This document shows positions 3,036-60,156 of a DNA stretch of 64,000 nucleotides, in pieces. Position numbers and translations under genes: made by a program. Under the pieces are notes generated by a model. It was not told the origin of the DNA, did no database searches, and was given only the letters and a program-made list of their open reading frames with translations. Position 1 is the stretch's first letter. Each line of letters starts with the position of its first letter. Source of the DNA: Antedon mediterranea (Eukaryota > Echinodermata > Crinoidea > Comatulida > Antedonidae); NCBI RefSeq assembly GCF_964355755.1, contig NC_092674.1, forward strand, positions 10,049,001 through 10,113,000. The letters are read 5' to 3'.

Positions 3036-4500
3036 CTTGTTTATATAGTTACCCAACTAATAATCACTAATCAAAACAAAACAAATACCTTGTTCAGAAA
3101 GAGGCTTGCTTCCTTGATTTTCATTTTCTAATAAAGAAAAAAGCATTACAAAATATAGGGTAATAGAAACACAAAAAAAGTACTAAAACTAAAATATTAT
3201 TTCCTTTGTGGTTCCAATATAATTAAATCTTCATGCCAACACAACGAAAATATAATTATTGCTTGTGTATTTAAATAACTGGAATCGTTTACGTCCCATG
3301 CTAATCCTACAAAAATAGGTTAAAAGGTAATGATTATTTATACTCTCTTTTTTTTGTTATCCTCAAATGAGATGGCAAGAAGATTTATGTTAGTTTTGCA
3401 GTTGAATATTATTAAGTAAATAAAAAAGACCTCCTCTTATTCATAAAGTCAATTAACATAAAGTGAACGGAATTATTTTGATTCTATCTGTCCCATTTAA
3501 TAGATTGAGGTTATCAAATTTGGTGATTAATTTAATGTTAAATTGTGGGAATTACTATTATGATTATTGATATTTTCTTTATTATTTACTTTTTATTTTC
3601 TTGGAACTCGATGGTCTCTTATGCTCATCATCTAGAAATCAAATCAATAATTAATATTAATAAAACGATACAAATTAAAATTTATAATTTCTAAAAATGT
3701 GGGAAATACGTTTATATACACTTATTTCTCATGATAGTAACCTACTGAGAATCTGGATGTTCAGAGTTGGTTGATAAATGTAGTTGGAAAAAGAGTAAGT
3801 TGATCAATATGTTTACATATCCAGCTACTAACTATACGGTATGGTAATCACTAATCAAAACAAAACACATACAGTACCTTGTTCAGAATGAGGCTTGCTT
3901 CCTTGATTTTCTTTTTCTAATAAAGAAAAAAAGCATCACAAAATATAGGATAAAAAATACCAAAAAAGGAAATATTATTATTTTCCTTTGTTGTTCCAAT
4001 ATAATGGAATCATCAAGCCAACACATGACAAGACAACGAAAATATAATTATTAGTGTATTTAACTAACTGGAATCGGTTACATCGCGTCTACCTTTACCG
4101 TAAGTACCGACAAAAATGGGTTTAAAAGGTAAGTATTTGTTATATTCTCTGGTTTTGTTTATCCTCAAGTGAGATGACAAGAAGATAATTTATTACTTTT
4201 GCAGTTGAATAGTATTAAGTAAATAAAAGACCACCTCTTATTCATAAAGTCAATTAACATAAAGTGAACGGAATTATTTTGATTCTATCTGTCCCATTTA
4301 ATAGATTGAGGTTATCAAATTTGGTGATTAAATTAATTTGTGGGATTCGAATTACTTTATGATTATTAATATTTTCTTTATTATTTACTTTTTCTTTTCT
4401 TGGAACTCGATGGTCTCTTATGCTCATCATCTTCACTATCTAGAAATCAAATCAATAATTCTTATAAATAATACAGATTAAAATTCCTTAAAATGTTATT
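3036..4500. repeat. Diverged tandem duplication, ~784-bp offset
   Basis: Sequence from about 3061 to 3700 recurs from 3845 to about 4495. Matching landmarks include TAATCACTAATCAAAAC (3061 and 3845), GAGGCTTGCTTCCTTGATTT, and the ends TCTAGAAATCAAATCAATAA (about 3630 and 4440). Small indels and substitutions show the duplication is not recent. Nothing coding is seen; the short minus ORF inside the second copy is Asn/Ile-rich noise. Confidence 0.8.
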
Positions 4501-4642
4501 TATTTCTCATCCATTAAAATTTAATGGATAGGAAATATCGTCCGCTCATAATATTTTACAAAAAATACAATCAAAGTAATGTGACATTCATGGAATAAAC
4601 CACGAGACGGAATTGTTATAGCATGTGTTACTTTAGATATTG

Positions 4643-5191
4643 TTAATCATAGACAAAATACATACCGGTACTTGATAGGCCTAGTTCTTCCTGTGCATAT
4701 TTTCCAAGACATCTTGCAAATTTCTTTGTTTTGCCTGGATCCTTTGTTAAACGTTTGTTGATCTCCAAATGAAATACGGCATCAAACAAATTATACTTCT
4801 TCAATTTGTAGACATCATTAACTTTCTGTAATGCACCAGGTTCAGCTTGTCTCACAGCCCTAAATAGTTGTTTTCGATAAGATGACAACCTGCTTTGATC
4901 AGTATTTTTAATATTATTATCTTCTAAATACTTAATTGCAAGCAATTCAGCCTCCTTCGGACCTGTTAATCTGGTGATCTCTAGCAGTAGGCCGACATTC
5001 TTAGGTGAGATAATACCATTGCCACTAGTCTTATCAAGTTTATTGAATAAAGTATGTCCCGTGGATTCCTTAGTAAGATCTCCTTTTGGTAAAATATCAA
5101 ATAGGCAAAATGTCAACAACTTGTAGTCTTCATCCTCATAGTACTTACTAAGCTCAAATTTCAAGTCATCAAACTTATCAATGTCTGTCAT
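4643..5191 (-). CDS. Death effector domain protein, 5' coding exon
   Basis: The exon encodes about 175 residues starting MTDIDKF. Residues ~8-85 look like a death effector domain: six-helix pattern with KLLTFCLFDILPKGDL, then LFNKLDK and NVGLLLEITRLTG, matching the FADD, caspase-8 and PEA15 type fold. DEDs assemble apoptosis and signalling complexes in the cytoplasm by DED-DED contacts. Residues ~90-175 are charged and helical without a domain I recognise. On the minus strand a good donor (CCG|GTATGT) lies at about 4668, so the listed stop is intronic and the protein continues in exons I could not find. A TTTTTGCAG acceptor lies 22 bases before the ATG, which implies a 5' UTR intron. The parent could be a caspase, an adaptor or a DED-only regulator; the sequence here does not decide. 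Confidence 0.65.
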   Translation of the reverse strand: MTDIDKFDDLKFELSKYYEDEDYKLLTFCLFDILPKGDLTKESTGHTLFNKLDKTSGNGIISPKNVGLLLEITRLTGPKEAELLAIKYLEDNNIKNTDQSRLSSYRKQLFRAVRQAEPGALQKVNDVYKLKKYNLFDAVFHLEINKRLTKDPGKTKKFARCLGKYAQEELGLSSTGMYFVYD

Positions 5192-5278
5192 TTTTTTCTA
5201 ATTGTGTGTCAGTCTGCAAAAACAGATATTATTAAATTATAATAAATTTCTATGTATATATAACTTCTATAGTTTTAA

Positions 5279-5342
5279 ATTGAAACTTATATGGTGCAGG
5301 ATGAAGGCACACAATAAGTACCGGTACCATATAAGTTTCAAT
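5279..5342. repeat. 17-bp inverted repeat (hairpin)
   Basis: Arms ATTGAAACTTATATGGT (5279-5295) and its exact reverse complement (5326-5342) flank a 30-base loop. It lies just upstream of the death-effector-domain exon, in its presumed 5' intron. Probably the remnant of a small foldback element. Confidence 0.75.
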
Positions 5343-8300
5343 TTTTTTTAAAATTGTGTATATTATGTTCTTAAAAAATATTCAACATCTTTTAATGAAT
5401 AGTTGTTATTAACTCAATGAACAAATGATTACAGTGTGTTTTTTTTCTCTAAAAACATTCAAAACGGATCGGCGCTCTTATGATGTGCATTGTTTCGTTT
5501 AATCCAGATTTCGCTGGAACAAATTATTTTTTAATTTCGTAAATAACGTGTGCATTCCGAATATGAATATTATATTATAAAGCATGTTAATATATACTTG
5601 TTTATGTTTTTAATTCGATATTAAATGTGCAAAATGAATGTATTTATCTCTGTCAGATAAAGTATAATGACGGCGATTGATCACGTTGCAAAATAAGTAC
5701 AGTATCAACGCACGCAAAAAAAGTCTATTAAATTAAGTATGTCCCGTAAATAACGTGTGCATTCCGAATATAAATATTACATTATAAACATTTAATATAT
5801 ACTTGTTTTATGTTTAATTCGATGTTAAATGTGGAAAATTATAGTACTACATTTAGTACAGTATCAGCGCACGCAAAAAAATTATCGTTTACTTGAAAAC
5901 TGTATTTGACAGAAAAATATATTTTGTATTGTTATAAGTGAAAACATTATTTGTTTACATTTTTCTACAGAAGTGAATAACTAAAAATTGACATATTAAA
6001 AGTCTTTTTCATTATAGTAGGGCGGCCAATGTGTGCTTTTTCATCATGGGGGGCATTTTCTGTTAATAGCAGGCAACCATGTGGAATATATCCCTTATGG
6101 GATGACAAAAAAGATAGGGGTGGATGCCGCTCTCAAATTTCAGGTCAAAGGTCATTTTCAAGGTTATAAGTTCAAATATGGTAAAATAGAGGTTTAAGCT
6201 GTTTTCAACAACATATAAGCTAATTAAAAGAAATGTAACCATTATTGGATCATTATTGACATATTGCTGCAGATGGTGAAGTTCATCAATTTTTCAACTT
6301 ACAAGTTTAAAGGTCATTTTCAAGGTCATAAGGTCAAATAGAGCACAGACCTGTATTAATAATTGAAATAAATATAATTTTCATGATAGCCTTGGGCTGA
6401 AGGAATGGAGAGGATGAGTCCTAGAGTATCAAAATAACCGAAATTGGAGGCCTACTGGAATGTCTTAAATTTCATTTAAAAACGGTCACAGAGGATTTGT
6501 GGGTTGGGAGTAATGGGCGGCATGGGCACATGCCAATATTCAACATTTTTCTGGGATAGAAGGAGGTAACGCTCTGAGGTGGGTATTTCTTCAAGCACTG
6601 ATATTATAATGCCTACTGGCCATCTGGGTAACGGCAAACGATTGAATCACAACCACATATGCATGCTTTCTGTAACAACTTCATCTGGCTCTTTAGTTTA
6701 CATACACATGTAACAAGTTCCAAACTGGGTTAGGGGCTTCCAAATGACCCGATTCATTTAGGCCACATACTGATCTCTGCCTGATAGTTGGCTCGTATGT
6801 TTAGGTTCTATGATATCTGTATTCACCATAGGTGAGTTTTTTTAATTTTAAGTGTTTCCCGAAGTAGAAATACAGGTACTTAAATATTTATTGAGTGAAG
6901 TGAAATACTTAATATTTAAGGGAAATATATATCACTAGTGTTAATGGTATATGGTCACTGAGTCTAGATGGAGGTAGCACCAAAGAGTAGTCTGTTATTA
7001 TACAGTTATCTGCTCAAGAGTACCATATATTTGGCAATACTAAACGTTAGTGTACACTGTACGTGGAAAGTCTTAATCTTAATCATTTCCATTTACAAGG
7101 AGTGGATGCGTTACAAATGATTTCCAGTATGACCTCTTCCCATAACCAGCAAATAATGACGTGCTGCAACCTCTAATGGCATGGAAGCTGGTTAGATTAT
7201 TCTTAATAGGTTTTCAACCACTTTATTGTTCACTATACCAGACATCGTCCATACTTTTGAAGGCTACTGTTACAAAGTGCATATCATTATTAACATCAAC
7301 TTTCATGTATAATTGCAAGCTCTTTGTTATTGACATAAAGAATGTCTAAAAACTGTGTGATATTTGTTCTCCTCCAAACCGATGAGTGTGGCCCAAAACA
7401 CATACGGAAGTACAGATTAGTACATTGGGACTATCCTTTCAATCGTGTCACTGCTTTTATCCACCCCATTCTGTAATATTCTGCAAAAAAGTCTTCTTTA
7501 TGTTCAATATTAAGTTTATTTTGAATCAACTTTTTATAAGAATAATGTTGTAGCTCGAATAAAAACACACAAAAAAAAGTTGTGTTTAATACGAATGCAA
7601 ACGGTACTAAATCTGATTAATAGGAAAAATCCTAATCGAGACACCAACTACTCTTTCGTTCTAGCGATTTTTTCACCTGAAAATATTCTCATCTTTATAG
7701 TTTATTTCAGCATTGAAAATGTATCTCTGTGTGTTTATACATAAATAAGCTTAACTTACAGTGACTCATTATGAAGGTAAGAAGCCAAAAATATTTTATA
7801 AATTCACTAAAATGTGTTTGATATTTTCACATATTGAATTTACATGTACATAGTAAAATCATATTAATAGTAATCATAATATGCGAGGCTAGGCAAATAA
7901 AGTTGAAGAACTTTATTATCAGTAGCCAATAGTTATCAATCAATTATTGTTTTGTTCAGTACAATCATAAACCTATTATAGGTCCGAACTAGTACCGAAT
8001 GGTACGTGCTACCCAATTAACCAATCAAATGACTGACAAGGATACAAGGCGTGGCATTATAAACTATACATGTACTATACATACATGTATATGATGAAGT
8101 ATAACAATTTACATCAATCGTAGTGACTAACCTTAATCGTGAAAATGTTGCAGAATACTGTAACGCAAGTCCTAAATTCTAACTTTAGCTTGCGACCAGG
8201 GAAGAGTGAGACTTAACCCACTCTTCCCTGGTTTGGTGTTCCGTGGCGTAAGTAGTTTAATTCGTGTTTTGACATCAACGCTTTCTAGTTATAAATGATT

Positions 8301-23315: not shown

Positions 23316-23886
23316 AAACAAAATATTGTGAAATGTGCAATGTAACGTGTTATAAATACTCTTAATAGATTAATATATCAATTATGCATCGGTGTTGTTC
23401 TGTTTTCGTATACACAGTATAGGTAGAATTAAACCCCATCTTGGGCGCCTGTTTCTGCTGCCAAATAAATATAGGATATAATATAATACGGTATTATACG
23501 GTATTTTCCAGTACGGTAAAATTTATTTATTTATTTATTCAATTTCTGCCATATACATAAACAAAAAAGACAAAACAATTATAAAAGGAGGCACGGAAAG
23601 ACCAAACAGGTGCTAAACACCTATGCTAGTTGGTCAACCCAGAACAGAGAAAAATAAATAAATTACGTTCTACAATAAAAGCATCGACAAGAAAGCGACC
23701 AACTACACCATAAATGGTGCTTGGAAAAATATACCGTATAAAATATACCGTTCTCCACCAAATCTGTGGATACACATTTATACCGTATTCTTTTTACCCT
23801 TTTCTGCTGACAATAAATGCGCAGAACACATTAGTAGTCAAATTTGTTCAAATATGGCCCAATTTCGACTGTATAAAATATGTATT
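23316..23886. other. Downstream flank of the TEX26-like gene
   Basis: Holds a candidate poly(A) signal AATAAA at 23464-23469, a short GCCTGTTTCTGCTG word also found at the end of the Harbinger-like MITE at 57586, and a probable reversed LINE/SINE tail at 23518-23710 (TTTATT repeats, then TTCTGCCATATACA). No coding exon. Confidence 0.4.
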
Positions 23887-24165
23887 GAGGTGGCATGCGC
23901 AGACCACATTATGTGATTCTGTGCATGTCATATGTCAACAAATTAAAAGGTAGAAATTTGGCATTTCTTCGAAAAATGGTCAAATATCAACTGTAGAAAA
24001 TATATCTTGAGGTAACATGCGAAGACCACATTATGTGATTCTGTGCATGTCATATGTCAACAAATTAAAAGATAGAAATTTGGCATTTCTTCGAAAAATT
24101 GTCAAATATCAACTGTAGAAAATATATCTTGAGGTAACATGCGAAGACCACACTATGTGGTTCTG
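23887..24165. repeat. 122-bp tandem repeat, about 2.3 copies
   Basis: The unit starts with GAGGT(GG/AA)CATGCG at 23887, 24009 and 24131, an exact 122-base period. It contains TGTGCATGTCATATGTCAAC and TTTCTTCGAAAAAT, words resembling parts of the type B satellite further right, so it looks like an older relative. Confidence 0.85.
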
Positions 24166-24479: not shown

Positions 24480-25745
24480 CATAGTAAAACAGTACAGGGC
24501 TTTTTTCGAAAAATGCCCAAAATGTCGAGAAAAATATATATTATTTTGCGATGCTATTACTATAACTTTTAGAACCATAGTAAACAGTTTGTCGAAAAAT
24601 AAAAGGGTCGAAATTTTGCCATTTTTGGAAAAAATCCCTGTACTAATGCCCAAACAAATTCAATTATTTTGCGATAATATTGCTATATGTGCGCATATAT
24701 TGCATTGCATTAACTTTTAGAGCCATAGTAGACAGTTTTGTCGAAAAATAAATAGGTTGAAATTTTGCATTTTTTGGAAAAAAAATCCCTGCGCTATAGC
24801 ACAAGGATTTTTGTCGAAAAATTGCCAAAATATTGACTTTTTAAAAATCAGTTATATTGCGATAATATTGCTATATATGCGCATATATTGCATTGCATCA
24901 ACTTTTAGAGCCCATAGTAAACAGTTTTGTCGAAAAATAAATAGGTCGAAATTTTGCCGTTTTTGGAAAAAATCCCTGTACTATAGCACAAGGATTTTTG
25001 TCGAAAAATTGCCAAAATATTGACTTTTTAAAATTCAATTATTTTGCGATAATATTGCGATATGTGCGCATATATTGCTTTGCATCAACTTTTAGAGCCC
25101 ATAGTAAACAGTTTTGTCGAAAAATAAAAGGGTAACAATTTTGGTTTTTTTTGGAAAAAATCTCTCTACTATAGCATAGGGAAATTTTCGAAACAATGGC
25201 CGATTTTCGACCCTTTTATTTTTTGTACTATAGCACAGGGATTTTTTTCGAAAAATGGCCAAAATATTGACTTTTTAAAATTCAATTATTTTGCGATAAT
25301 ATTGCTAAATGTGCGCATATATTGCATTGCATCAACTTTTAGAGCCATAGTAAACAGTTTTGTCGAAAAATTAAAGGGTCGAAATTTTGCTATTTTTGGA
25401 AAAAATCCCTGTACTATAGCACAATTCAATTATTTTGCGATAATATTGCTAAATGTGCGCATATATTGCATTGCATCAACTTTTAGAGCCATAGTAAACA
25501 GTTTGGCGAAAAATAAAAGGGTCAAAATTTTGCCCTTTTTTAAAAAAAAATCCCTGTACTATAGCACAGGGATTTTTTCAAAAAATGGCCAAAGTATTGA
25601 CTTTCTAATAATCAGTTATATTGCGATAATATTTCTATATGTGCGCATATATTGCATTGCATCAACTTTTAGAGCCATAGTAAAAAGTTTTGTCAAAAAA
25701 TACTATAGTACAGGGAAATTTTCGAAACAATGGCCGATTTTCGAC
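24480..25745 (+). repeat. Type A satellite, ~188-bp unit (left block)
   Basis: About seven degenerate units with period ~188 (for example AGCCATAGTA at 24721, with later copies near 24909 and 25098). Each holds AACAGTTTTGTCGAAAAATA, TCCCTGTACTATAGCAC, TTTTGCGATAATATTGCTA and GTGCGCATATATTGCATTGC. Some units are shortened. The overlapping ORFs are artefacts of repeat-wide lack of stops. Confidence 0.9.
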
Positions 25746-28700
25746 CGTTTTATTTTTTGACATAAATGGTTACTATTGCATAATAAATATGCGCAGATAC
25801 GAATAATGGGTTCTGCGCATGTCAATTGTACTATGGTAACCGATTTTGACATAAATGGTTACTATAGTATAATGCGCAGAGGCGAATAATGGGTTCTGCG
25901 CATGTCAATTGTGCTATAGTAACCAGTTTTATCGAAAAATAAAAAGGTCGAAAATTGGTCATTTTTTGGAAAAAATCCCTGTACTATAGTACAGGGAAAT
26001 TTTCGAAAAAATGGCCGATTTTCGACCCTTTTATTTTTTGACATAAATGGTTACTTTTGCATAATAAACATGCGCAGAGACGAATAATGGGTTCTGCGCA
26101 TGTCAATTGTGCTATGGTAACCAGTTTTATCGAAAAATAAAAAGGTCGAAATTTGGCAATTTTTTGGAAAAAATCCCTGTACTATTATAGTACAGGGAAA
26201 TTTTCGAAAAAATGGCCGATTTTCAACCCTTTTATTTTTTGACATAAATGGTTACTATTGCATAATAAACATGCGCAGAGGCGATTAATGGGTTCTGCGC
26301 ATGTCAATTGTGCTATGGTAACCAGTTTTGACATAAGTGGTTACTATAGTATAATAAACATGCGCAGAGGCGAATAATGGGTTCTACGCATGTCAATTGT
26401 GCTATAGTAACCAGTTTTATCGAAAAATAAAAAGGTCGAAAATTGGTCATTTTTTTGGAAAAAATCATTGTACTGTACTATAGTACAGGGAAATTTTCGA
26501 AAAAATGGCCGATTTTCGACCCTTTTATTTTTTGACATAAATGGTTACTTTTGCATAATAAACATGCGCAGAGACGAATAATGGGTTTCTGCGCATGTCA
26601 ATTGTGCTATGGTAACCAGTTTTGACATAAATGGTTACTATTGCATAATAAACATGCGCAGAGGCAATTAATGAATTCTGCGCATGTCAATTGTCCTATG
26701 GTAACCAGTTTTGACATAAATGGTTACTATAATATAATAAACATGCGCAGAGGCAAATAATGGGTTCTGCGCATGTCAATTGTGCTATAGTAACCAGTTT
26801 TATCGAAAAATAAAAAGGTCGAAATTTGGCAATTTTTTGGAAAAAATCCCTGTACTATAGTACAGGGAAATTTCGAAAAAATGGCCGATTTTCAACCCTT
26901 TTATTTTTTGACATAAATGGTTACTATTGCATAATAAACATGCGCAGAGGCGATTAATGGGTTCTGCGCATGTCAATTGTGCTATGGTAACCAGTTTTGA
27001 CATAAGTGGTTACTATAGTATAATAAACATGCGCAGAGGCGAATAATGGGTTCTACGCATGTCAATTGTGCTATAGTAACCAGTTTTATCGAAAAATAAA
27101 AAGGTCGAAAATTGGTCATTTTTTGGAAAAAATCCCTGTACTTAATTGACAGGGAAATTTCGAAAAAATGGCCGATTTTCAACCCTTTTATTTTTTGACA
27201 TAAATGGTTACTATTGCATAATAAACATGCGCAGAGGCGATGATTGGGTTCTGCGCATGTCAATTGTGCTATGGTAACCAGTTTTGACATAAGTGGTTAC
27301 TATAGTATAATAAACATGCGCAGAGGCGAATAATGGGTTCTACGCATGTCAATTGTGCTATAGTAACCAGTTTTATCGAAAAATAAAAAGGTCGAAAATT
27401 GGTCATTTTTTGGAAAAAATCCCTGTACTGTACTATAGTACAGGGAAATTTTCGAAAAAATGGCCGATTTTCGACCCTTTTATTTTTTGACATAAATGGT
27501 TACTTTTGCATAATAAACATGCGCAGAGACGAATAATGGGTTTCTGCGCATGTCAATTGTGCTATGGTAACCAGTTTTGACATAAATGGTTACTATTGCA
27601 TAATAAACATGCGCAGAGGCAATTAATGAATTCTGCGCATGTCAATTGTCCTATGGTAACCAGTTTTGACATAAATGGTTACTATAATATAATAAACATG
27701 CGCAGAGGCAAATAATGGGTTCTGCGCATGTCAATTGTGCTATAGTAACCAGTTTTATCGAAAAATAAAAAGGTCGAAATTTGGCAATTTTTTGGAAAAA
27801 ATCCCTGTACTATAGTACAGGGAAATTTCGAAAAAATGGCCGATTTTCAACCCTTTTATTTTTTGACATAAATGGTTACTATTGCATAATAAACATGCGC
27901 AGAGGCGATTAATGGGTTCTGCGCATGTCAATTGTGCTATGGTAACCAGTTTTGACATAAGTGGTTACTATAGTATAATAAACATGCGCAGAGGCGAATA
28001 ATGGGTTCTACGCATGTCAATTGTGCTATAGTAACCAGTTTTATCGAAAAATAAAAAGGTCGAAAATTGGTCATTTTTTGGAAAAAATCCCTGTACTTAA
28101 TTGACAGGGAAATTTCGAAAAAATGGCCGATTTTCAACCCTTTTATTTTTTGACATAAATGGTTACTATTGCATAATAAACATGCGCAGAGGCGATGATT
28201 GGGTTCTGCGCATGTCAATTGTGCTATGGTAACCAGTTTTGACATAAGTGGTTACTATAGTATAATAAACATCCGCAGAGGCAAATATTGGGTTCTGCGC
28301 ATCTCAATTGTGCTATAGTAACCAGTTTTATCGAAAAATAAAAAGGTCGAAAATTGGTCATTTTTTGGAAAAAATCCCTGTACTTAATTGACAGGAAAAT
28401 TTTCGAAAAAAATGGCCGATTTTCGACCCTTTTATTTTTTGACATAAATGGTTACTATGGTATAATAAACATGCGCAGAGGCAAATATTGGGTTCTGCGC
28501 ATCTCAATTGCGCTATAGTAACCAGTTTTATCGAAAAATAAAAAGGTCGAAAATTGGTCATTTTTTTGTAAAAACTCCCTGTACTATAGTACAGGGAAAT
28601 TTTCGAAAAATGGCCGATTTTCGACCGTTTTATTTTTTGACATAAATGGTTACTATTGCATAATAAATATGCGCAGATACGAATAATGGGTTCTGCGCAT

Positions 28701-30404
28701 GTCAATTGTGCTATGGTAACCAGTTTTGACGTAAATGGTTACTATAGTATAATAAATATGCGCAGAGGCGAATAATGGGTTTTGCGCATGTCAATTGTGC
28801 TATAGTAACCAGTTTTATCGAAAAATAAAAAGGTCGAAAATTGGTCATTTTTTTGGAAAAAATCATTGTACTGTACTATAGTACAGGGAAATTTTCGAAA
28901 AAATGGCCGATATTCGACCTTTTTATTTTTTGACATAAATGGTTACTATAGTATAATAAACATGCGCAGACGTGATTAATGGGTTGTGCGCATTGTCAAT
29001 TGGGCTATAGTAACCAGTTTTATTGAAAAATAAAAAGGTCGAAAATTGGCCATTTAAAAAAAAAAAATCCCTGTACTATAGTACAGGAAAATTTTCGAAA
29101 AAAATGGCCGATTTTCGACCCTTTTATTTTTTGACATAAGTGGTTACTATAGTATAATAAACATGCGCAGAGGCGATTAATGGGTTCTGCGCATGTCAAT
29201 TGTGCTATGGTAACCAGTTTTGACATAAATGGATACTATAGTATAATAAACATGCGCAGAGGCGAATAATGGGTTCTGCGCATGTCAATTGTGCTATAGT
29301 AACCAGTTTTATCGAAAAATAAAAAGGTCGAAAATTTGCCATTTTTTTTAACAAATCCCTGTACTAGTACAGGGAAATTTTCGAAAAAATGGCCGATTTT
29401 CGACCCTTTTATTTTTTTGACATAAATGGTTGCTATTGCATAATAAACATCCGCAGAGGCGATTAATGGGTTCTGCGCATGTCAATTGTGCTATAGTAAC
29501 CAGTTTTATCGAAAAATAAAAAGGTCGAAAATTTGTCATTTTTTGGAAAAAATCCCTGTACTATAGTACAGGGAAATTTTCGAAAAATGGCCGATTTTCG
29601 ACCCTTTTATTTTTTGACATAAGTGGTTACTATAGTATAATAAACATGCGCAGAGGCGAATAATAGGCTCTGCGCATGTCAATTGTGCTATGGTAACCAG
29701 TTTTGACATAAATGCTTCGTATAGTATAATAAACATGCGCAGAAGCGAATAATGGGTTCTGCGCATGTCAATTGTGCTATAGTAACAAGTTTTATCGACA
29801 AATAAAAAGGTCGAAAATTGGCCATTTTTTTTGAAAAAATCCCTGTACAGGGAAATTTTCGAAAAAATGGCCGATTTTCTACCCTTTTATTTTTTGACAA
29901 AAATAGTTGCTATTGCATAATAAACATCCGCAGAGGCGATTAATGGGTTCTGCGCATGTCAATTGTGCTATGGTAACCAGTTTTGACATAAATGGTTACT
30001 ATAGTATAATAAACATGCGCAGAGGCGAATGATGGGTTCTGCGCATGTTAATTGTGCTATAGTAACCAGTTTTATCGAAAAATAAAAAGGTCGAAAATTG
30101 GCCATTTTTTGGAAAAAATCTCTGTACTAATAGTACAGGAAAATTTTCGAAAAAACGGCCGATTTTCGACCCTTTTATTTTTTTACAAAGATGGTTACTA
30201 TTGCATAATAAACATGCGCAGAGACGAATAATGGGTTCTGCGCATGTCAATTGTGCTATGGTAACCAGTTTTGACATAAATGGTTACTATAGTATAATAA
30301 ACTTAGAATAATGGGTTCTGTGCATGTCAATTGTGCTATAGTAACCAGTTTTATCGAAAAAAAGGTCGAAAATTGGCAATTTTTTTGAAAAAAATCTCTG
30401 TACT
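25746..30404. repeat. Type B palindromic satellite array
   Basis: Two palindromic modules alternate. Module P (~120 bp, about 16 copies, for example 25927-26043) has arms running from TCGAAAAATAAAAAGGTCGA inward to a centre CTGTACTATAGTACAG and out through TCGACCCTTTTATTTTTTGA. Module Q (~76 bp) has ends TGGTTACTATAG and CTATAGTAACCA and inner arms CATGCGCAGA and TCTGCGCATG. Q is followed either by a full P or by a 13-base joint GTTTTGACATAAA and another Q. Several P centres vary (TACTTAATTGACAG, or shortened). P shares its left half with type A, so B probably arose from A. Confidence 0.93.
26469..28272. repeat. 955-bp higher-order duplication within type B
   Basis: Sequence 26469-27317 recurs at 27424-28272 with an exact offset of 955 bases. 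I found no difference, including at idiosyncratic positions such as ATTAATGAATTCTG and TACTTAATTGACAGG. Divergence begins at 28273 (CATGCGC to CATCCGC) and before 26469. Neighbouring units differ from each other far more. Confidence 0.88.
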
Positions 30405-30840
30405 AAGTACAGGGAAAATCAATTATATATTGCATATATTGCATTGCTTTTAGAGCCATAGTAAACAGTTTTGTCGAAAAATAAATAGGTCGAAATTTTG
30501 CCCTTTTTGGAAAAAATCCCTGTACTATAGCACAAGGATTTTTGTCGAAAAATTGCCAAAATATTGACTTTTTAAAATTCAATTATTTTGCGATAATATT
30601 GCTATATGTGCGCATATATTGCATTGCATCAACTTTTAGAGCCATAGTAAACAGTTTTTTCGAAAAATAAATAGGTCGAAATTTTGCCTTTTTTTGGAAG
30701 AAATCCCTGTACTATAGCACTGTACTATAGCAAAGGGATTTTTTCGAAAAATTGCCAAAAATATTGACTTTTTAAAATTCAATTATTTTGCGATGATATT
30801 GCTATATGTGCGCATATTATTGCATTGCATCAACCTACCT
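30405..30840 (+). repeat. Type A satellite (right block)
   Basis: About two and a half type A units in the same orientation as the left block (TTTAGAGCCATAGTAAACAG, TTTTGCGATAATATTGCTA). So the type B block is bracketed by type A on both sides. Confidence 0.88.
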
Positions 30841-56520: not shown

Positions 56521-57585
56521 CTTGTTTTAGAAAACCTATTGTGTAGTAGTAAAGTTTTAAATACTTGTTTTTAATTTAATGCATTCATATTTAACCTAAT
56601 TAAATATTCAAAGGACAAATTGATAATAAAAGTTTAATACTTGTCCGAAACCAGGATGTGTTAATGAAAAGATATTGAAATTCTTGAATTGGTTTGTCAA
56701 TGGATTAACGATTTAGATACTACTTTCACTAGATAATAAAGTTCTTAATAAGGACATGGCCATCATTAATAAATTTCAAGTATGGCCATTGGACCGTGAC
56801 GGTTTTTTTTTACACAATGTGTAGTTCGTTATTTTTAGTTCATATTAATTCCATTATTGTTGACTACACCTTTTCAAGGAAACATTATGTGGATTGGTAT
56901 ATTAATAAATTTGTAGCTTTTGACATCAGGTAACAGAAAAACATCCTTCTCTAGTCTTACCCTCAATCTGTTTTTCTTACCCTCAATCTGCTTCTCTTAC
57001 CCTCAATCTGCTTCTCTTACCCTCAATCTGCTTCTCTTACCCTCAATCTGCTTCTCTTACCCTCAATCTGCTTCTCTTACCCTCAATCTGCTTCTCTTAC
57101 CCTCAATCTGCTTCTCTTACCCTCAATCTGCTTCTCTTACCGTCAATCTGCTTAGACTAAGTAAAAAAATACAAATTAATTTATTAATATTATCCATTTA
57201 TCTATTAATAACATCGGATGACCTATGAACCCGTCATCCTTTAGCATTCCCTAAATTCCGTTCACATGAACGTGATCTCCTTCAGTAAATGTTGTTTCCT
57301 AATTTATACAGTTGAACCAATATTAACCACAAACAAGTGCTGGAGATTCCTAATCCGCCACAAAATGATTACAGTATATGAATGACCACATCCTTAAGAA
57401 ATAAATTTGTTTAGTGCGTGTCCAACAGTTGCATAAATGAAAGAATTGTTACATGGCGTCAGACTGAACATAATAGTACAGTAATACAATAACAATGTAG
57501 ACTATTGCTACATCAGTAAATAAACATTCTTCAATTCAATTTTAACCACAATCCTATATGGATAATTTAGCAAAAAGTACCTTTA
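56521..57585. other. Intron stretch with minisatellite
   Basis: AT-rich sequence around the minisatellite at 56956-57155; nothing else supported. Confidence 0.4.
56956..57155. repeat. 20-bp minisatellite, 10 copies
   Basis: The unit CCTCAATCTGCTTCTCTTAC recurs every 20 bases from 56961 through 57141. The first copies and the last carry single changes; the central ones are identical. The 102-residue ORF over it is the repeat read through. Confidence 0.95.
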
Positions 57586-58154: not shown

Positions 58155-60156
58155 CAGTGTTCTCCCCAGGATTCACATCAAGCGTCACGGTTGACCCCCC
58201 CCCCCCTCGGGGGGGGGGGGGGCATTGGGGCACTAAGTACTTGAGCCACAGCCCCACCATGGTTGGGGCTGTGGCGAAGCGATTTTTGGTAATTTACACC
58301 CTAGATGGCCGGAAATGGTACTCTCGCCCACATAACATTTATGTTGAATGACGCCTCTTGTTTGGCCGGAAATAACACTTATAGCGCGCTAGCAAACAAC
58401 AAAACGATCGTAGCCAACTTTTTCAGCCGGTAAACATACGCGAAGAAACATTTTTTTGCATTAATTACGAACGTCAGGGGGAAGCCCCAATGAAAAAAAT
58501 AGGCCTAATCTATTAGCCTACTCATCAGTAGGACAACTCTAGTTGGCCGGAAACGAAACTTTATAGCGCACTAGCAAACAGTAAAACCATCGTAGCACAC
58601 TTTTTCCGCCAGTAAACATACGCGATAAAAAAATGTTTTTGCGTTCAATACGAACGTCAAGGGGAATTCCCCGATGAAATAAAACTAGGCCTACTCATGA
58701 GTAGGACAACTCTGTAGTTGGCCGGAAAGACACTTCATAGCGCGCTAGCAAACCGCACGATCGTAGCCTGCTTTTTCCGCCGGCCGGTAAACATACGCGA
58801 TAAGAAACATTTTTTGCGTTCATTACGAACGTCAAGGGGATTTCCCCGATGAAATAAAAAAATGCTACTCATCAGTAGGACAACTCTGTAGTTGGCCGGA
58901 AAGGACACTTCATAGCGCGCTAGCAAACAGCCCGATTGAGCCTACTTTTCCGCAGGTAAACATACTGTACGCGATATATGAAAAAAAAAATATGCCTACT
59001 CATCAGTAGTCAACTGTAGTTAGCCGGAAACGACACCTCATAGCGCGTTAGCAAACATTAAAACGATCGTAGCCTACTTTTTTTTTTCGCCGGCGGGTAA
59101 ACATATGCGATAAAAAACATTTTTTGCGTTCAAATACAAACATCGGGGGCAAGTCCCGATGAAATAAAACTAGGCCTACTCATTAGCATGGAGTAAAGAA
59201 CTTTACTCCATGTCATTAGTAAGACACCTCTAGTTGCCCGGAAATAAGACTTCATAGCGCACTAGGAAATAGGAAAACGATTCGAAAGAGAGACATGGCA
59301 GTAACAAAACACGTGCTTACATCTCTCGGCGGCGGCCGCCGGTGAAAGCACCATGTGACATACAGTATCGCAGTACTGATATCACAATACCATGTGATAT
59401 CCCTTGTCACTCGACTTTCTCACGAAGTAGGGCCTAAAACATTCTAGCACCGATGTACAAATACACTTAACTTAAGGTACATTAAATGTACCTTAAGTTA
59501 AGTGAAATAAGACTTTAGCGCACTAGCAAATAGGAAAACGATCGTAGCCTTCTTGAATGTATTATACGATCAAAGCAGCTAGCATTGAATTGCGCCTAGA
59601 AATCATTTGATGACGTGCGTATGTTACCGACGAAAGAGTAAATCCCACCGATAGAGTCGATTAATTCAGTGTGATATTGAAAATAATAATATCATCGATA
59701 TTTATTTTTAATACACATAACATTTTTAGAAGAAAAACAATACAATCAATCATTTACTTTATTTACAATATACAAGTTACTACATTTTAGACAACAGCCA
59801 AATAACTAGAGATCGAAAGAGAGACATGGCAGTAACAAAACACGTGTTTACATCTCTCGGCGGCGGCCGGTGAAAGCGAGTCTCAGTTGTTTAACACTTT
59901 GTTACGCAGTCTTTTGTTTTTCGTCTAGTGGTCATGTCACGTGTCTCGTGTATGCATTAGGCTCTTTATGCATGCCGCGCCTCAGCTCTAGAGAAAGTAC
60001 CGTACCTGCCTGTTAATCTATTTTTAGATTGTTGTGGTTGATATTTTTAAGCGTCACGGATAAGGTTTTAAGCGTCACGGCCGACCGTAAAGCGTCACGG
60101 TAGAGAACCCAAGCGTCACGGTACCGTGACGCTTCAAAGGCCTGGGGAGAACACTG
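58155..60156. mobile_element. hAT-like DNA element with internal satellite
   Basis: Inverted ends CAGTGTTCTCCCCAGG (58155) and CCTGGGGAGAACACTG (ends 60156) with target duplication CATCATT (58148-58154, 60157-60163). Subterminal words AAGCGTCACGG occur once at the left (58180) and four times plus one inverted at the right (60049-60134). The interior holds about seven degenerate units of ~130-260 bp, marked by TAGCGC(G/A)CTAGCAAA at 58382, 58563, 58738, 58913, 59041, 59254 and 59514. No transposase is seen. Confidence 0.88.
59463..59503. repeat. Perfect 41-bp palindrome inside the hAT-like element
   Basis: CACTTAACTTAAGGTACATT and its reverse complement AATGTACCTTAAGTTAAGTG flank a single central base. 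A second small palindrome, CATGGAGTAAAG with CTTTACTCCATG, lies at about 59188-59215. Confidence 0.85.

Follow-up and report, generated by a model that had tools for sequence, protein, structure and literature searches.

Transposons carrying satellite arrays are already known, as are transposons with one favoured insertion site. Among the latter, Pokey is reportedly a target-specific DNA transposon whose favoured site lies in multicopy RNA genes. With regard to satellite cargo, excerpts of the report on the foldback transposon Tetris of Drosophila virilis describe internal tandem repeats that expand into TIR-220 satellite arrays; many of the contigs treated there hold no element ends, and in those excerpts no transposase-encoding element was found (PMC4079207). 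The Cg_HINE Helentrons of Crassostrea gigas are described, in the excerpted account, as dispersed, non-autonomous elements with central satellite-like arrays, some of them related to a classical satellite (PMC7492417). In bivalves, the pearl-type MITEs DTC84 and CvA hold short satellite-like arrays, and the extracted part of the same work on phBglII400 and bivalve satellites places the junctions of one satellite inside a palindrome, with 13 of 16 in the longer palindrome (PMC5139131). Insertion at a fixed point of repeated DNA is illustrated by the mariner Mboumar of Messor bouvieri, for which the excerpt describes five copies of the MITE-like IRE-130, within satellite DNA, that were hit at an identical dinucleotide (PMC2581405), and by the insertion sequences IS1397, ISKpn1 and IS621, which occur in bacterial palindromic units (cited in PMC2817692, excerpt). 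In the literature searched, part of it in excerpt, no element was found that combines satellite cargo with a favoured site through a shared palindrome, although such an absence is unproven.

The DNA studied here, referred to as the window, is a stretch of 64,000 nucleotides of Antedon mediterranea (C5:10049001-10113000) from a genome whose 18 contigs make up 354 Mb, 353.5 Mb of it in the 11 largest. The gene fragments it contains look animal, and COX1 was looked for without being found. Profile tiling revealed a satellite array on the forward strand at positions 25701-30419, in which modules P and Q follow each other head to tail: 16 full P modules part 17 groups of one, two or three Q, with 32 Q in total and a partial P at both ends. 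The first-pass annotation had located this array slightly too narrowly, at 25746-30404, and its estimate of about 16 P modules agrees with the 16 full copies, to which the two partial ones have to be added. The two modules that it recognised are real, but they do not alternate one to one, as P-Q, P-Q-Q and P-Q-Q-Q all occur. P is indeed palindromic, imperfectly so, with a length of about 107-110 bp instead of ~120 bp (for example at 29514-29619, forward strand, with the centre CCCTGTAC-TATA-GTACAGGG), and the ~76 bp originally assigned to Q correspond only to the palindromic core of an 89-bp unit (for example at 29218-29306, forward strand). Judged by eye, the linker between adjacent Q is also palindromic. 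A separate scan located 17 P centres, the last of them in the truncated right-hand P, with 2 to 15 bases between their CCCTG and CAGGG arms.

Both flanks of the array consist of diverged units of a sister satellite of 187 bp, P/J, made up of P and a non-palindromic insert, J, in alternation. These units occupy positions 24589-25700 on the left and, in the same direction, 30471-30837 on the right, both on the forward strand, so that the family extends past the limits first annotated. The left edge of the array (25691-25762, forward strand) is a P without most of its left arm that begins at the palindrome centre TACTATAGTACAGGG, and this half P opens the array at 25701; at the right edge (30392-30419, forward strand) a P is broken just past its centre and is followed by J-like sequence. 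Further to the left, a 122-bp tandem repeat (23842-24165, forward strand) gave weak P-like and Q-like matches of 20-23 bits and is possibly an older relative. Within the array, the forward-strand blocks of 849 bp at 26469-27317 and 27424-28272, identical without a mismatch at an offset of 955 bp, represent a recent internal duplication. In addition, one single Q at 29428-29501 resembles, by eye, a hybrid of both Q types; the fuzzy expression used for Q also took in stretches of P, and single Q readings alone were used from it. The changing number of Q (1-3), the hybrid-looking Q and the 849-bp duplication point to unequal exchange or slippage, processes by which the arrays may have lengthened. 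Neither of the two frames of at least 120 aa that touch the array matched Pfam.

The 4.7-kb block of the window is not a local structure, but one of many arrays on chromosome arms that belong to a single dispersed family of satellite DNA, non-coding and present as tandem head-to-tail arrays at several loci. A 31-mer of Q, with up to 3 mismatches allowed, gave 8,020 matches genome-wide (4067 forward and 3953 reverse), compared with 0 genome-wide for its reversed control; since each of the two arms of a Q may give a match, the genome holds roughly 4,000-8,000 Q. Exact copies of a 75-bp Q sequence (85 in total) were present on every large contig except C9, which makes 10 of 11. Tiling was extended to 48 sources, namely the window and 47 loci picked by strong matches to P, Q or J, and Q was present in 39 of them. 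In these 39 sources P modules are parted by runs of mostly 1-3 and up to 6 Q, sometimes with partial P modules adjoining. Q has the direction of the P majority of its locus 498 times and the opposite one 36 times. The arrays differ widely between loci in length and in Q number. It had been suspected that P and Q might also exist as single MITEs. No intact solo P or Q was detected in the 48 tiled sources, where the choice of loci by strong P, Q or J matches means that solo copies could be missed; the suspicion holds to the extent that some P/Q arrays lie inside a TIR transposon, as described below. A further reading, with P serving as TIR for the unit of the satellite, was rejected on finding that the edges were not constant among the five right edges read.

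Matches to a marker of the sister satellite P/J cluster in internal stretches of the chromosomes. An exact 54-mer of J occurred 49 times on six chromosomes, at 21.2 and 23.5 Mb of C2, 17.3-17.6 Mb of C5, 13.4 Mb of C7, 20.2-22.2 Mb of C8, 9.4-9.5 Mb of C9, and 10.7-10.8 and 12.1 Mb of C11. P/J arrays are adjoined by an 87-bp repeat, S, with 88 copies at no more than 1 mismatch, of which 72 are placed at C2 21.3-22.1, C4 10.4, C7 12.0-13.3, C8 20.3-22.3, C10 10.0, and C11 10.4 and 12.2 Mb, and 16 lie on the unplaced contigs C12, C13 and C15. A variant of P, among the matches listed (100 of 617), adds C3 at 16.5-17.3 Mb and, with two matches only, C1 at 27.3 Mb. On C6 no such zone was seen with the J 54-mer, with S, or with the P variant among the same 100 of 617 matches listed. 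That two different markers, J and S, fall in common internal stretches supports the zones drawn from these matches, and the zones look as if they may be centromeric. P/J also reaches beyond them, as diverged units beside P/Q arrays on the arms and as the L042 array at C8:24.27 Mb, which was counted as central in the covariation and J-Q comparisons described below, though it lies ~2 Mb outside the zone.

Comparison of Q with J points to the origin of the former. With a J consensus that took in 12 flanking P bases per side, the left end of Q scored higher against the inverted right end of J than 500 of 500 letter shuffles did for J from the arms and 499 of 500 for central J, and the right end of Q matched J in direct orientation, where 4 and 5 of 500 shuffles did as well. 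This likeness suggests an inverted duplication of the J/P junction as the source of Q, a step by which the whole P/Q unit would have become palindromic. P/Q appears to be a derivative of the P/J satellite, its sister, with which it shares P.

Single-strand DNA folds, each compared with 200 dinucleotide shuffles, bore out the first-pass view of a satellite-like tandem array of inverted-repeat modules, already supported by the tiling. P folded at -33.6 kcal/mol (z -9.1, 0/200 shuffles as good; other strand z -7.9, 0/200) and Q at -22.9 kcal/mol (z -8.5, 0/200; other strand z -5.5, 1/200), and a second Q gave z -6.2 with 0/200. The neighbouring insert J folded at chance level (z +1.3, 190/200 shuffles as good). 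Compensated two-sided changes were not in excess within P of P/Q arrays (17 vs a shuffle mean of 21.1) or within Q (5 vs 3.2). Central P, with L042 included, gave 26 compensated cells vs a shuffle mean of 19.1 and a shuffle maximum of 29; P pooled from P/Q and P/J gave 179 vs a mean of 85.4 and a maximum of 100, an excess left uncounted because two related groups are mixed in that set. A selected hairpin RNA was accordingly rejected for P of P/Q and for Q, and the palindromes look inherited and slowly decaying rather than kept by pairing selection. It is very improbable, in our judgement, that the array acts as a functional source of hairpin RNA or piRNA or as a selected centromere-like element: the strong folding of both strands and the centromere-like zones marked by P/J speak for such a role, yet it is opposed by the lack of excess compensatory change and by the wide variation in array length and Q number.

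Comparison of array flanks revealed how part of the family has moved. A segment, A, lies beside the array at loci on both C2 and C7, with 98% identity there; used as a 110-bp query, it identified 36 genomic places, some of them partial. The right-flank segment, B, gave 52 candidates, of which 40 were scored and listed. Reading of the edges defined an element, hereafter the carrier, bounded by TIRs of ~30 bp; a genome-wide search allowing no more than 2 mismatches located 47 of these ends. Seven copies were read whole. Five of them enclose P/Q: L067 (941 bp, with a minimal P/Q piece), L071 (3,365 bp), L072 (4,597 bp) and L069 (right TIR shortened), all with TATA as TSD, and L058, with the imperfect pair TATA and TATT. 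The other two lack P/Q: L068 (1,328 bp) has the TSD AAAA, and L070 (1,717 bp) has none. A perfect 4-bp TSD was thus present in 5/7 copies read whole, and in 6/9 carriers with both ends read when the pairs on C4 (TATA on each side) and C1 (no TSD in common) are added. The carrier is a TIR transposon, with TIRs of ~30 bp and a TSD fixed at 4 bp, and some P/Q arrays lie inside it and have been moved by it. L067 and L068 align at their ends (90% and 83%) and differ in their middles, P/Q replacing another interior. That P/Q-free interior, taken from L068, has 13 matches genome-wide, and the P/Q-free form of the carrier is probably ancestral. Two adjacent P/Q-free carriers on C11 sit between P/J units, and their left TIRs were unmatched.

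No transposase was found among 9 carrier or insert frames, none of which matched Pfam at 0.01. L070 contains only short frames, and so does the C1 pair as far as it was read. The ends of this pair, 8.5 kb apart, were considered as an autonomous copy, which was rejected on account of nested carrier pieces and flanks without a common TSD; the pair was read except for its middle 3.3 kb, and its frames look RT-like by eye, without a Pfam match.

Inspection of the insertion sites showed that 22 of the 30 distinct carrier ends read lie at a P centre (18 insertions, four copies giving two ends), or 18/30 under a stricter score. The figure of 22 was judged by eye, starting from an automatic count of 24, from which the right end of L058, L066 (degenerate P-like) and L075 were removed and to which the right end of L069 was added; the 30 ends come from fetched loci and are no random draw. 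By profile scores, in a count made by the author, the neighbouring module at these P-centre ends is J in 20/22 and Q in 0/22. No insertion into a P beside Q was present among the 30 ends, though P/Q arrays offer many such sites. Furthermore, joining the flanks and removing one duplication restored sequences that match uninterrupted stretches (90% for L067, 84% for L069, 81% for L072), and the joined flanks of L068 match an uninterrupted stretch of the S repeat at 93%. L070 gave no match in this comparison, and L071 gave 2, both weak.

These neighbourhoods could also have been produced without any targeting of P, if a composite block of P/J, carrier and P/J had been copied by segmental duplication. 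The presence of J beside P in most P-centre flanks speaks for such copying, and a pair of neighbouring copies on C3, separated by ~19 kb and alike in length and in divergence, may have arisen as a segmental duplicate. Nevertheless, the carrier occurs in both orientations relative to P/J. The left ends of 13 pairs have a median identity of 0.97, as against 0.75 for their 100-bp flanks, and the contrast is weaker for 13 pairs of right ends (0.87 vs 0.77). In addition, the copy in the S repeat has its own TSD and its closely matching empty site. Both orientations and diverged flanks beside near-identical left ends make the insertions look independent, and independent insertion into a shared target best explains the identities of ends and flanks. 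Segmental duplication is already disfavoured, and we consider it improbable. Among the ends read, insertion of the carrier is mostly into the TATA centre of P within P/J arrays.

The carrier can now be placed beside the systems described above. It shares with Tetris the condition of a DNA transposon with internal repeats expanding to satellite arrays; as far as the excerpts describe, the Tetris repeats lie inside its TIRs, whereas the TIRs of the carrier are about 30 bp and its array is internal, and the carrier additionally inserts by preference at the centre of a palindrome in a related satellite (PMC4079207). Because of its short TIRs and internal array, we rejected its classification as a foldback element of the Tetris or Galileo type. 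Like Cg_HINE, it is a mobile element with central satellite-like arrays; in the excerpted account HINEs lack a TSD and lie in T-rich sites, in contrast with the TIRs, 4-bp TSDs and favoured target of the carrier (PMC7492417). The presence of TIRs together with a 4-bp TSD likewise excluded a Helitron or Helentron. Mboumar generates TA duplications and had no site preference in vitro, unlike the carrier with its 4-bp TSD, and the excerpt does not mention satellite cargo (PMC2581405). For the bivalve MITEs, the extracted text describes no element that prefers to insert at the centre of a palindrome belonging to a sister satellite (PMC5139131). Dada resembles the carrier in favouring one site in a multicopy sequence, but, in the excerpted description, its targets are RNA genes, its TSDs are of 6-7 bp, and TIRs are missing from its U6 and U1 families (PMC3706591). 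The carrier makes a 4-bp TSD, its targets are P of P/J and, in one case, the S repeat, and it was not assigned to Dada. Finally, IS1397, ISKpn1 and IS621 work in a similar way, inserting into a dispersed palindromic repeat according to the excerpt, with no membership implied (PMC2817692).

To what extent the carrier accounts for the whole family has to be weighed against plain satellite spread, through extrachromosomal circles or ectopic exchange via P, with the carrier as a late passenger that took up P/Q in a minority of loci. P is common to P/Q and P/J, and the two satellites run in the same direction in 16/22 tiled sources holding both. Moreover, 41 of 58 partial-P breakpoints fall at profile positions 40-69 of 107, although an end-of-hit bias is likely in this figure. 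When 22 clusters on C1 were built from exact Q 31-mers among the matches listed (100, all on C1), a listed carrier part was present within 5 kb in 7/22 and none was listed there in 15/22, the lists being incomplete, and the window also lacks one nearby. On the other hand, many carriers contain P/Q, and their left ends are nearly identical while the flanks differ, which speaks against plain spread. We give plain spread somewhat less than an even chance. The explanation that we favour, and hold to be probable, is that P/Q derived from P/J and was dispersed over the genome at least in part by the carrier with a P/Q interior.

The array of the window is a particular case. No match to any carrier part (segments A, B and X, or the TIR) was found in the window, so that its transport by the carrier can only be proposed. 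The array begins at a P centre and stops just past another, within co-directional P/J relics. Its carrier ends may have been lost through exchange between P modules or, alternatively, the array may have joined P/J via P-P recombination. That the carrier moved this particular array is a guess, for which we see about an even chance.

Altogether, the data bear on an old question, that of how satellites leave centromere-like regions and turn up along chromosome arms. In this genome the vehicle, the cargo and the landing site can be read together, with duplicated target sites and diverged flanks, and although the array of the window has no transposon ends, the carrier copies offer a readable case of a jumping element spreading a satellite. 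They also form a natural experiment on the question whether, in eukaryotic DNA, transposases can recognise the centres of palindromes, or cruciforms possibly formed there. We tentatively suggest, with slightly more doubt than belief, a partnership between transposon and satellite. Its mobile partner would be a cut-and-paste element with an inherent preference for the dyad centre in the palindrome of a centromere-type satellite; this element would have taken up a satellite made from that palindrome and, by jumping, would seed new palindromic satellites along the arms. If this partnership were true, one satellite module would be landing site and cargo at once.

Among the 30 distinct ends that were read for the carrier, a terminal-inverted-repeat transposon, none was an insertion at the centre of a P module adjoined by Q. 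The arrays of the P/Q satellite nevertheless offer many copies of the same palindrome. In central arrays of the sister P/J satellite, a sequence of about 200 bp was found between the non-palindromic J insert and P, with copies on contigs C7, C10, C4 and C9 that were 91-98% identical (L028:1578-1779, L032:1783-1978, L033:943-1138, and L034:1020-1216 and 1726-1921). This sequence is another dispersed insert, of fixed position. In locus L055, a gap of about the same size as this insert was observed. A 297-bp sequence with a tRNA-like start was present at L022:964-1260 and L027:4282-4578, the C10 and C6 copies being 99% identical, and by eye it looks like a tRNA-derived SINE.

Within the GC-rich first 3 kb of the window, a reverse transcriptase fragment (Pfam RVT_1) was detected at 1298-1879 on the forward strand (E 2.4e-20), and the frames beside it look, by eye only, like a DIRS-type or related retroelement. 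An open frame at 4646-5197 on the reverse strand matched the death effector domain (E 1.7e-6), with a score of 28.6 bits, under the curated cut-off of 35.9. Other tandem repeats of the window include a near-perfect 20-bp repeat at 56955-57153 (9.9 copies, 98% matches) and a 175-bp repeat at 58516-58953.

Regarding the 87-bp S repeat, which adjoins P/J arrays, 16 of its 88 matches lie on the unplaced contigs C12, C13 and C15, as would be expected if these represented unassembled centromere-like sequence.
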